From Fischerella sp. JS2 (GTDB lineage Bacteria > Cyanobacteriota > Cyanobacteriia > Cyanobacteriales > Nostocaceae): a stretch of 64,000 nucleotides of DNA. The translations under genes and the position numbers were made by a program. The notes under the pieces were generated by a model that did not search any database, was not told the DNA's origin, and was given only the letters and a program-made list of their open reading frames with translations. The stretch is taken from the NCBI RefSeq assembly GCF_032393985.1, contig NZ_CP135918.1, positions 620,001-684,000 of the forward strand, read 5' to 3'. Each line of letters opens with the position of its first letter. Positions within the stretch are counted from its first letter, which is position 1. Positions 2,690 to 54,814 of the stretch are shown piece after piece.

Positions 2690-2913
2690 TGAATAATGAA
2701 CTGCCCTTCGGGTTCGCCACCTTGCCAACCCTTACGGGAAGCCGCTTTGCGTCTACCTGACGGAGACCGCCAAGACGGCAAGTGGACTCACCAAGACGCC
2801 AAGAACGCCAAGAATTTTTCAATTAAAAGAGAAAATAAAATCATCCCACAAATATGCAACGCCGTAATTTTAATTGCGAACTAAGAATTACCTGAAATAT
2901 ACTCAGGAGAGTA
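2690..2913. repeat. Repeat-rich spacer with dispersed repeat R1
   Basis: Contains an R1 copy at 2728-2757 (ACCCTTACGGGAAGCCGC...GTCTACC), the phrase CCTTCGGGTTCGCCA also found near 11347, and CACCAAGACGCCAAG-type text. Short open frames here on both strands are made of repeat sequence, and I see no gene. Confidence 0.55.
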
Positions 2914-3360
2914 TCAATCTTTGGCAACTACTATGTCTGTAGATTTAATTACAGCATAGGCTTCTCCTCCGACAACCAGCTCTAATTCTTCACTTGAGAC
3001 TTTGGTGATCACAGAGGTTAGCTGGACTTTGTGAACAATCTCTAGTGTTACTTCACTATTGACTGGCCCATTCACAATTTTGGTGACAACCCCTTTGAGA
3101 ACATTTCGGGAACTAACTTTTAATGGTTTCTTTTGAGTAGTAACTTCTGATGAATGAGTGCTAGCATCTTCTTCTTTGGGCAGAGTTGGTAATGGGGCTA
3201 GAGAAACTGAAGATACTGGAGACTCTTTGTTCAAACTGCGTACAAATTCCCGTAGAACCTCTGTTTTTGTGCGTTGAGATTGCTGGCAAAACTCCTCCAG
3301 CATTTTTCGCTCCTCCTCAGAGGTTTGAAATGTAATCCATCCTTGTTCTTTTCTTGGCAT
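2914..3360 (-). CDS. Ribbon-helix-helix / Mop (TOBE) fusion regulator
   Basis: A 148-residue protein in three parts. Residues 8-44 look like a ribbon-helix-helix domain: strand WITFQTS, helix EEERKMLEEFCQQSQ, then helix TKTEVLREFVRSL. Residues 45-80 are a Ser/Pro/Thr-rich linker. Residues 82-147 form a Mop/TOBE domain (SSRNVLKGVVTKIVNGPVNS...VIKSTDIVVA), the oxyanion-binding fold of ModE and molbindins. The natural reading is a molybdate- or tungstate-responsive DNA-binding protein, an analogue of ModE with a different DNA-binding domain (inference). The start is supported by the operator-like array that begins six bases upstream. No mod transporter or molybdoenzyme gene is in the window. Individual domains are recognised with good confidence; function is unproven. 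Confidence 0.75.
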   Translation of the reverse strand: MPRKEQGWITFQTSEEERKMLEEFCQQSQRTKTEVLREFVRSLNKESPVSSVSLAPLPTLPKEEDASTHSSEVTTQKKPLKVSSRNVLKGVVTKIVNGPVNSEVTLEIVHKVQLTSVITKVSSEELELVVGGEAYAVIKSTDIVVAKD

Positions 3361-3365
3361 AGCTT

Positions 3366-3415
3366 TACCAAATCAGTTGGTATCTTGTTGGTAATTTTTG
3401 GTAGTATCCTACCAA
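3366..3415. promoter_or_regulatory. Array of five TTGGTA half-sites (putative RHH operator)
   Basis: TTGGTA or its complement TACCAA begins at 3366 (reverse), 3377, 3388, 3398 and 3410 (reverse), steps of 11, 11, 10 and 12 bp, close to one helical turn. The outer pairs form inverted repeats TACCAA-N5-TTGGTA (3366-3382) and TTGGTAG-TATC-CTACCAA (3398-3415). The array lies immediately upstream of the RHH/Mop start codon and between it and a small plus-strand ORF. Phased hexamers are typical of ribbon-helix-helix operators, so autoregulation is likely. Confidence 0.7.
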
Positions 3416-3452
3416 CCGTTGATTTTATAAAAAATCTCTTAGCTGTTATCCT

Positions 3453-3554
3453 ATGAAAGGAAAAAGCTTTTTGATTTTAATTTTTGCAGCATTTATTAAT
3501 TTACTGCTGGCAATTTGCTTGCTATCATTTACTTCCTTTACATTACTAGCATAA
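3453..3554 (+). CDS. Small hydrophobic peptide, 33 residues, or truncated signal peptide
   Basis: ATG at 3453 opens a 33-codon frame beginning MKGKSFLILIFAAFINLLLA and ending LLA then TAA. It has a basic start and a long hydrophobic core, as in a signal peptide or single membrane anchor. It is divergent from the RHH/Mop regulator across the TTGGTA array and so probably under its control. Because Mop-domain regulators often neighbour molybdate transporters, it could be the orphaned signal peptide of a lost periplasmic binding protein; nothing like ModA follows. Weak evidence overall. Confidence 0.3.
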   Translation: MKGKSFLILIFAAFINLLLAICLLSFTSFTLLA

Positions 3555-4126
<572 letters not shown>

Positions 4127-46177: not shown

Positions 46178-46260
46178 AATAGACAGAAATTATTAAGATT
46201 TTATAACAACCTAACCCGAATGTAGGTTTTTTTCCAAGCATCTAGGGGAAGAGGAGGTGG

Positions 46261-46310
46261 GGTGTGGGGAGTGTGGGGGTGTGGGGAGTGTGGGGGTGTG
46301 GGGAGTGTGT
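46261..46310. repeat. 17-bp tandem repeat, three copies
   Basis: GGTGTGGGGAGTGTGGG at 46261-46277, 46278-46294 and, slightly altered, from 46295. It belongs to the G-rich GGGGAGTGTGGG tracts seen elsewhere in the window. An R1 repeat follows at 46309-46340. Confidence 0.8.
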
Positions 46311-47338: not shown

Positions 47339-47481
47339 GGGGGAAGGATGAAGGGTGTAGACGCGCTCATAGGCTTCAAGGTAGAGTAGGGGAAAGGCAG
47401 AAGGATGAATTTTAGTATTTATCCTTCTGCCATCTGCCATCTGCCATCTGCCATCTGCCCTGGTGCCTCCTGCCTTCTTCA

Positions 47482-50169: not shown

Positions 50170-50475
50170 GGAGTGGGGGGAGTGGGGAGATGGGGAGATG
50201 GGGAGGTGGGGAGAGGTGTGAGGAGTATGAGGAGTGGGGGGAGTGAATAACTATTGACTATTGACTATTGACCAATGACCAATGACCAATGACCAATGAC
50301 TAATGACTAATGACAAACGACCAATTACTAAAAAATAAAAAATGCCCCAGAGTTTTCTCTAGGGCTTAACCAGGGTGCATCTACCATTCACCTCTACTAG
50401 ATAGGGAGAGTCGATCCGGAAAGATACTGAGAAAATCTCAAAAAAAATTTCTTTTGTTAATTATCTAATTTTTTT
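50170..50475. repeat. Spacer lgt-cobM: G-rich and heptamer repeats, plus a hairpin
   Basis: 50170-50245 is a GGGGAGTGGGGAGATGGGG tract. 50251-50314 has heptamers CTATTGA, CCAATGA and CTAATGA. The hairpin described separately lies at 50348-50368. The remaining 100 bases form the cobM leader with AT-rich DNA and no cobalamin riboswitch that I can recognise. Confidence 0.55.
50335..50370 (-). terminator. Hairpin with T-run on the minus strand
   Basis: GCCCCAGAG-TTTT-CTCTAGGGC pairs with one bulge/mismatch. On the minus strand the stem is followed by ATTTTTTATTTTTTAG, an intrinsic-terminator layout, though no minus-strand gene lies upstream. On the plus strand it could end the lgt transcript less efficiently. 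Confidence 0.5.
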
Positions 50476-51841: not shown

Positions 51842-51977
51842 GTAGAAACGCGAGGAACATCGCGTCTGTACAATAGTGGTTAGTAGTTAGTAGTTAGTGG
51901 TTTATAGAAAAAATCAACAACCAACAACCAACAACCAACAACCAACAATCAATAATCAACAATTAACTAAAAAAGTT
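51842..51977. repeat. Palindrome R2 and CAACAAC heptamer cluster
   Basis: 51842-51871 is an R2 palindrome (GAAACGCGA-GGAACA-TCGCGTCTGT), followed by TAGTAGTTAGTGG repeats and CAACAAC heptamers at 51914-51965. The heptamers are open in the frame of the next gene and artificially extend it upstream. Confidence 0.75.
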
Positions 51978-54101: not shown

Positions 54102-54814
54102 GCTAAACTATAAAGCTTTGATGTTTGGTATTTTTTTTATTATCTTAATATTTATACTCTATAACCATCCCACTTTGGATATAAAAATTATTCTTTATAT
54201 CCCTGCTGCTTATAGATTCGGTGATCCCTGAGTGTTCTGGCTTGAGAACTATAGCTTTATAGTAGTGATGTTTCTTATAGATTCAGTGAAAACTTGGATA
54301 AAGCGAAAAAAAATAAAAATTTGTATAATTCAGCCAGTTCACACTGAACTGTGACTTATCTATTTGGCACTAAATGATAATAGTCCTGATGTTTCTGACT
54401 TTATATGTTTGTCTAGACTTTGTTACCCAAAAAATAGTCTATATATTATAGATATCTCCATGAAATGCTTTTATAAAAAGTAGCGTGAGTAACAAAAAGA
54501 CAAAAAATTAACACTTTATTGGTTATAGTAACAAAGTGTTAATTTATAGCTAGTGCCTATTTTTTGTTGCTAGGGGAGTTGTGATTAAACTTCCGTGAGA
54601 AAATTTAAGGAAATATTTCGATTAATAGATGAACGCCATTAGCAGCGTTTGCTAATCTAATGAATAGTAATGGGTAATGGGTAATGGGTAATGGATAATG
54701 GGTTTCCCCAATTGTCAATTACCCATCATTTCTTATTTCCTTAATGAACTTAAAAGTGTGAGGGTGTAAGAGAAAATCACTTTTCTTCCACACTTATATA
54801 GAAATATCTGCAAC
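54102..54814. repeat. Long spacer with a 12-bp hairpin and TAATGGG heptamers
   Basis: AATTAACACTTT (54506-54517) pairs perfectly with 54533-54544. TTATAGATTCGGTGA and TTATAGATTCAGTGA form a direct repeat (about 54210 and 54276). Five TAATGGG heptamers occupy 54668-54702. I found no coding frame in these 713 bases. Confidence 0.55.
54506..54544. repeat. Perfect 12-bp inverted repeat
   Basis: A hairpin AATTAACACTTT/AAAGTGTTAATT with a 15-base loop that itself contains GTTA/TAAC. It lies far from both neighbouring genes; possibly an RNA 3' end or mobile palindrome. Confidence 0.6.

Follow-up and report, generated by a model that had tools for sequence, protein, structure and literature searches.

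A ribbon-helix-helix–Mop protein and its TTGGTA inverted pairs as a candidate molybdate switch in cyanobacteria

ModE of E. coli combines a winged-helix N-terminus with two Mop domains, and Mop/TOBE domains bind several oxyanions. NikR, which controls a metal importer, carries a ribbon-helix-helix (RHH) domain together with an ACT-type nickel domain. In A. variabilis, Mo and W repress a Mo-transport gene, a modE homolog has been named, and VnfR1 and VnfR2 are Mo-dependent repressors, according to the passages of PMC4284476 drawn on here. We describe a cyanobacterial protein which, from its domains, its promoter and its gene neighbours, is very probably a molybdate-dependent repressor of the mod genes and of its own gene.

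The window, that is the whole stretch of 64,000 nucleotides of Fischerella sp. JS2 that was analysed, encodes this protein near its beginning:

2914..3360, minus strand: RHH-Mop regulator gene, 148 aa, ATG at 3360, from the list of open reading frames
2920..3123, minus strand: C-terminal Mop/TOBE oxyanion-binding domain, residues 80-147, from NCBIfam, Pfam and PDB matches
3217..3360, minus strand: probable N-terminal RHH domain, residues 1-48, from profile matches of relatives, a structure model and a fold search

The original prediction had read the protein as an RHH domain fused to a Mop/TOBE domain, a reading that is supported, more firmly for the Mop half than for the RHH half. The C-terminal half is clearly a Mop domain by its profile matches: residues 80-147 pass the cut-off of NCBIfam Mop TIGR00638 (E 5e-18, 64.9 bits against 55), Pfam TOBE matches residues 83-143 (E 3.7e-11), and a PDB sequence search gives 1h9j as the closest structure to the Mop part (E 6.7e-18), 1gug matching as well. 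The Pfam and NCBIfam profiles find a single TOBE/Mop stretch and no tandem Mop pair. The S-S-R-N and K-S motifs of the domain presumably form the oxyanion ligand region, and R85, K139 and S140 are each kept in 35 of 36 aligned members, the exception being a relative encoded in a vnf cluster (L139). The N-terminus is probably an RHH domain, which we conclude through relatives and fold rather than from the window sequence alone. In the window protein itself, the only RHH match is a weak one to TraY, below the cut-off (0.059 for the whole protein, 0.0068 for residues 1-48). Among 29 N-termini of the regulator family, RHH_1 is matched by 21 at E <= 0.1 (best 3.6e-6), TraY by 15, RHH_9 by six, NikA-like by three and the unrelated zf-CRD by eight; with 36 full-length members and E <= 1, zf-CRD is matched by 34 (best 0.014) and RHH_1 by 13 (best 2.6e-5). 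A structure model of residues 1-48 (pLDDT 83) has helices at 15-28 and 32-45, as a monomer without a called strand, and the 50 of 82 Foldseek matches shown for it are mostly RHH proteins, among them CopG, AmrZ, PutA, NikR, Arc and ParD, with E values of 0.87-3.6 and none at or below 0.001. For the full-length protein the model is of low quality (mean pLDDT 52.5), and the five PDB matches obtained with the RHH profile (E 0.39-6.7) all bear names of designed proteins. Conservation of the N-terminus is strong, with MP(R/K)KxQGW(I/V)TFQ and RxKT.

Like ModE, the regulator has a Mop-type oxyanion domain behind a DNA-binding domain. The ModE N-terminus is TIGR00637 and that of the regulator probably RHH: TIGR00637 is not matched by the regulator at E <= 1, and PRK10676 ModE covers residues 77-147 only. 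The fusion of an RHH domain to a metal-sensing domain is shared with NikR, whereas the sensor is of Mop/TOBE type; the ACT-type nickel domain was not found in the regulator with Pfam or NCBIfam. Mop/ModG molybdate-binding proteins have the regulator's C-terminal domain and, unlike it, no DNA-binding domain; a separate Mop protein is encoded in the Fischerella sp. JS2 genome. Just downstream of the regulator, positions 2400-2632 of the window resemble by eye the out-of-frame end of a transposase gene.

The stretch in front of the regulator contains five exact TTGGTA hexamers within 3366-3415:

3366..3382: proximal pair TACCAA-N5-TTGGTA, inverted; its minus-strand TTGGTA occupies -11 to -6 relative to the ATG
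3388..3393, plus strand: middle TTGGTA hexamer, single, not generally conserved
3398..3415: distal pair TTGGTA-N6-TACCAA (TTGGTA-NNATNN-TACCAA), inverted, candidate operator
3406..3411, minus strand: TAGGAT, -10-like box in the distal pair, directed towards the regulator; TGG precedes it, making it extended -10-like
3402..3407, plus strand: TAGTAT, -10-like box on the opposite strand, directed away from the regulator, the side where relatives carry modA
3422..3449, minus strand: ATAACA-16-TAAAAT, weak alternative promoter-like site directly upstream of the array, from a consensus scan

The hexamers start at 3366, 3377, 3388, 3398 and 3410 (steps 11, 11, 10, 12), the outer two reading TACCAA (TTGGTA on the minus strand) and the inner three TTGGTA, exactly as had been predicted. 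What was described as five helically phased sites is better described as two inverted pairs: the hexamers are real, and the steps are 11 within the proximal pair and 12 within the distal one, but the hexamer at 3388 is not conserved, the spacing between the pairs varies, and the five do not count as equal sites. Use of the TAGGAT and TAGTAT boxes as promoters is an interpretation of the sequence; the promoter consensus scan of 2700-3900 gave four sites against 2.0 expected.

TTGGTA is a common hexamer in the window, with 77 copies against 42.6 expected from shuffles. Its densest 50 bp hold five copies, whereas none of 100 first-order Markov simulations of 64 kb exceeded three. Elsewhere in the window, however, 5-6 copies per 50 bp are reached by eight other hexamers too, so that the decisive argument is conservation and not the count alone. 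These other dense clusters (46257-46303, 47426-47459, 50177-50314, 51915-51962 and 54668-54703) are probably short tandem repeats. Such clusters and the overall excess of TTGGTA are what one would cite for taking the five hexamers as functionless remnants of a short repeat, an explanation we consider barely credible given the uneven steps, the inversion symmetry, the conservation at fixed positions and the second copy at modA.

We analysed conservation in the best 80 of 203 candidate orthologues in genome contigs, whose titles name Nostoc, Fischerella, Calothrix and related cyanobacteria and whose products are 64-97% identical to the regulator. In the 80-bp stretches before their start codons, the N5 pair is exact in 41/80 and present within one mismatch in 42/80, the N6 pair exact in 35/80 and within one mismatch in 54/80; dinucleotide-shuffled upstream stretches contained a pair with at most one mismatch in 1 of 2000, the same for both types. 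These 80 loci are related and do not count as 80 independent events. The position of the N5 pair is fixed, 39 of the 42 found within one mismatch lying at -22, and the centre of the N6 pair is AT in all 35 exact pairs and in 52 of the 54 within one mismatch, which gives TTGG[TANNAT], extended -10-like, on each strand. By eye, the middle hexamer is often degenerate or missing, and a second type of copy in Nostoc, not beside modA, has the distal pair but no proximal one. Six orthologues have no exact hexamer at all in the 80 bp, and in nine both pairs are off by more than one mismatch (four Anabaena/Trichormus and two Nostoc away from modA, three Nostoc beside modA). The predicted autoregulatory array is conserved across families with exceptions: orthologues lacking it exist, at nine in 80, beside the 41 and 35 with exact pairs.

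The location of the proximal pair admits an explanation at the RNA level, in which it would be a hairpin hiding the ribosome-binding region and the distal pair a second hairpin or a terminator. The TTGGTA at -11 to -6 does fill the Shine-Dalgarno region in many orthologues, and a terminator-like stem was called on the plus strand at 3398-3415, one of three such sites in 2700-3900 against 1.0 expected. We nevertheless judge this explanation very unlikely: each stem has few base pairs, the only Rfam match in 2700-3900, a snoRNA with E 0.67, falls short of its gathering score, the fixed AT core of the exact distal pairs (35/35) reads as a -10 box, and the same pairs recur at a distance from start codons, 130-290 bp ahead of other Mo genes.

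In 22 of the 80 orthologous loci, modA is divergent from the regulator and shares its upstream region. The exact distal pair is rarer there (4/22 against 31/58 elsewhere; within one mismatch, 13/22 against 41/58), and the exact proximal pair occurs in 12/22 beside modA and 29/58 elsewhere. Of the 22 divergent loci, 21 retain the core TANNATNNTA, which reads as a -10-like box on either strand and is better kept than the outer hexamer bases; TANNAT towards modA is likewise found in 21/22. Where the distance from the proximal hexamer to the modA-ward box could be measured (19 loci), it is 16-18 bp in 13 and 19-20 bp in six. The two -10-like boxes overlap by two bases, and the start sites would be about 15 bp apart if each lay 7 bp downstream of its box. 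In bidirectional promoters of E. coli the commonest start spacing is 18 bp, 10 and 23 being common too, in the passages quoted from PMC12825309; set against these values, a spacing of about 15 bp makes a promoter shared by regulator and modA in the divergent loci a suggestion only.

In Fischerella sp. JS2 the modA-modBC genes lie elsewhere in the genome than the regulator, and the array is found there a second time: TTGGTANNATNNTACCAA occurs at exactly two places in the 7.02-Mb genome, the regulator promoter and the region upstream of modA-modBC. Profiles identify ModA downstream of the array in this genome, and ModA and ModBC in a relative. The plain TTGGTA-N6-TACCAA has three sites in the genome against none for the reversed control; when as many as two mismatches are allowed, the counts for the distal pattern are 58 against 40, so that the looser matches are mostly background. 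At modA of Fischerella sp. JS2, TTGGTA is followed after 17 bp by TATAAT, and TTGGTA lies 16-18 bp upstream of a TANNAT box at four of the five modA arrays examined. Three one-mismatch distal-pair sites of Fischerella sp. JS2 (L248-L250) and a noncoding N5 site in L243 were dropped, no recognised Mo gene adjoining them. Beside modA lies a broken RHH-Mop remnant (L112:5672-5794, that is G000:C1 about 5289671-5289793) with the array kept. It consists, in different frames, of a start-like stretch seen by eye and about the last 24 residues, profile positions 122-145, which score E 2.3e-5 in a five-locus search and only 0.18 genome-wide; profile searches of four other modA loci gave no clear regulator remnant. 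The array and the remnant beside modA indicate that the ancestral layout was probably regulator-array-modA, the array having stayed when the local gene decayed. An interruption of modA in Fischerella sp. JS2 was considered and rejected, ModA being intact (TIGR01256 positions 1-217). Between the intact modA and modBC there is an apparent partial duplicate of the ModA C-terminus (L112:6874-7113), and two genomes encode, by eye, a similar 81-aa protein near modA (L112:4836-5081 and L238:7870-8115).

The array at modA-modBC and the frequent position of the regulator beside modA argue for the predicted control by molybdate. The protein had been proposed as an autoregulator; its own promoter does carry the array, but molybdate import is probably regulated as well. 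The regulator thus resembles ModE in being a likely Mo-dependent repressor with a putative operator at the modA promoter and differs from it in having an array also at its own gene; its TTGGTA pairs differ from the ModE consensus in the excerpt of PMC2700814 that quotes it. The A. variabilis modE homolog has the same gene position as the regulator in the 22 of 80 loci and, in the passages of PMC4284476 used, is named without an RHH domain or an operator; to judge by gene position only, it is probably the RHH-Mop regulator.

We found vnfG in 37 of 217 genomes of the host family and not in that of Fischerella sp. JS2. The vnf clusters of seven vnfG genomes were read and three hold members of the regulator family: in G002 an RHH-Mop protein with R85, K139 and S140 replaced (L139:11246-11686), in G003 and G126 RHH-only proteins with a proximal-type pair at the start codon. 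A Nostoc plasmid carries a further RHH-only gene with the pair. These four relatives (L139:11246-11686, L146:6419-6625, L148:7733-7927 and L278 near 3001) are without the Mop domain or the presumed ligand residues, and three of them have TACCAA-N5-TTGGTA at the start codon. VnfR1 and VnfR2 resemble the regulator in its proposed role, being Mo-dependent repressors in the same kind of organism in the cited passages of PMC4284476. Their membership of the regulator family was considered and rejected, because the gene upstream of vnfH in G002 encodes an XRE-PBP_like protein and VnfR accordingly belongs to a different family. The VnfR-type proteins match HTH_3 and PBP_like, neither of which the regulator matches; the genes in VnfR position here encode an XRE HTH and PBP_like protein of about 400 aa having no domain in common with the regulator.

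In the three genomes read, XRE-PBP_like regulators related to VnfR are preceded, at 266-287 bp, by an N5 pair (L235:7447, L238:3345 and L239:7325), with a small ORF of 132-154 aa on its other side each time. Together with the binding of VnfR1 upstream of the ava4025 promoter, reported in the part of PMC4284476 considered, this would fit an array that is the operator of another regulator, for instance an XRE-PBP_like one of VnfR type, the RHH-Mop protein then only reading or storing molybdate. We hold this to be decidedly improbable, since the pair sits at the start codon of the RHH-Mop gene across families, typically with 5 bp between, and RHH-only relatives carry it at nearly the same place; binding of the pairs by the RHH-Mop protein itself remains the preferred reading.

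An alignment search across the host class matched 176 of 388 genomes, many of them partially (Mop only or RHH only); by a hand count of the listing, there are 69 near-full matches from position 1, in 65 genomes. Outside the host family, 27 of 46 near-full places were read, in 26 genomes. By raw counts the N5 pair is exact in 16/27 of these loci and within one mismatch in 22/27, with 18 of the 22 at -21 to -26 and four further upstream; it is off by more than one mismatch in 5/27. In 22 of the 27, modA or modBC was recognised within the fetched stretch. A seemingly near-full-length match on a Methylorubrum plasmid was dropped, the gene being annotated as a 70-aa TOBE protein after modABC. Run against the phylum, the RHH profile found matches in 55 of 244 genomes, every one of them from the host class, the split of the 244 between this class and others not being given; many of these matches are small other RHH-like ORFs. 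ModE_repress (TIGR00637) exceeded its cut-off in none of 376 cyanobacterial genomes and in two of 14 controls. Sub-threshold matches are present in 255/376; the frames of those listed measure mostly about 290-420 or 690-720 aa, and we take these matches for LysR-type and other helix-turn-helix proteins.

As a candidate regulon signal, the N5 pair has 105 sites against 25 for the reversed control (31 genomes) and the plain N6 pair 73 against 27 (40 genomes). In nine genomes with complete listings, 59 of the 63 exact N5 sites were read, of which 24 are noncoding and 35 coding; because of the latter, the N5 pair alone was rejected as specific evidence. Sixteen of the 24 noncoding sites (14 places, two with two sites) lie within 400 bp upstream of a Mo-related gene, a tally that is a description and not a blind test, as the set of Mo-related labels was partly chosen after reading the sites. 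The genes concerned are the regulator, modA, two further types of molybdate-binding protein, Mop and XRE-PBP_like regulators. The other eight noncoding sites bear no such label, one being at an RHH-only gene in a vnf cluster. A single coding site (1/35) is Mo-linked, in reality a divergent promoter with an overcalled start, and at G012 C6 a modA promoter was again counted as coding through an overcalled start. Eight further genomes with short but complete site listings stood outside the tally (G001, G004, G024, G027, G029, G030, G033 and G034, with 12 sites); of the eight sites seen from them, six fall in coding frames, while one of the two noncoding sites lies at the regulator and the other at a modA-like gene. 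At L117:5540 (G010:C1:4454539), TTGGTATAATCATACCAA lies about 25 bp upstream of a gene resembling by eye the ArsC/Spx family, which could be chance or an extra target.

How might such a switch work? We infer that the RHH part binds DNA as a dimer with the TTGGTA hexamer in inverted pairs as operator code, that the C-terminal Mop domain senses molybdate (or tungstate), and that molybdate acts as a co-repressor. The distal pair overlies a -10-like box. The proximal pair falls between this box and the regulator's start codon; in the direction of modA, it occupies roughly the -35 position. With enough molybdate in the cell, the Mo-loaded protein would cover its own promoter and that of modA-modBC; when molybdate falls, the repressor would leave the promoters and import would rise. 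The direction of the response and the ligand cannot be read from sequence, and Mop/TOBE domains bind more than one oxyanion, so an array that is used by an apo-repressor released by molybdate, or by an activator, or mainly in response to tungstate or another anion, has to be weighed too. We think it unlikely, as repression is what one would expect from an array overlapping -10-like and -35-position elements. A co-repressor likewise fits the repression of a Mo-transport gene by Mo or W in A. variabilis, as given in the passages of PMC4284476 used. Repression by the molybdate-loaded protein is thus the reading we retain.

What looks new here is the scaffold, the operator and the spread of the operator; no RHH-Mop molybdate regulator and no TTGGTA operator came up in the open-access literature searches. 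A broader proposal, possible though we regard it as rather doubtful as a whole, is that ModE has been replaced in cyanobacteria by an RHH-Mop switch reading TTGGTA over the core promoter. The near-symmetric TANNATNNTA promoter would then serve both the regulator and modA, the same code would run a wider Mo network (molybdate-binding proteins, Mop storage and XRE-PBP_like), and the sensor-less vnf relatives, blind to Mo, would recognise the same operator and so link the Mo and V systems. Nitrogen fixation and nitrate use both depend on Mo, but the cyanobacteria searched have no canonical ModE over the cut-off. The candidate regulator and candidate operator offer a directly testable account of how molybdate import may be shut off in these organisms, one that would account for the reported repression by Mo and W in A. 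variabilis. The TTGGTA code may be used to look for other genes under Mo control, V-nitrogenase-type regulators among them, and the protein would place a familiar sensor domain on an unrelated DNA-binding scaffold.
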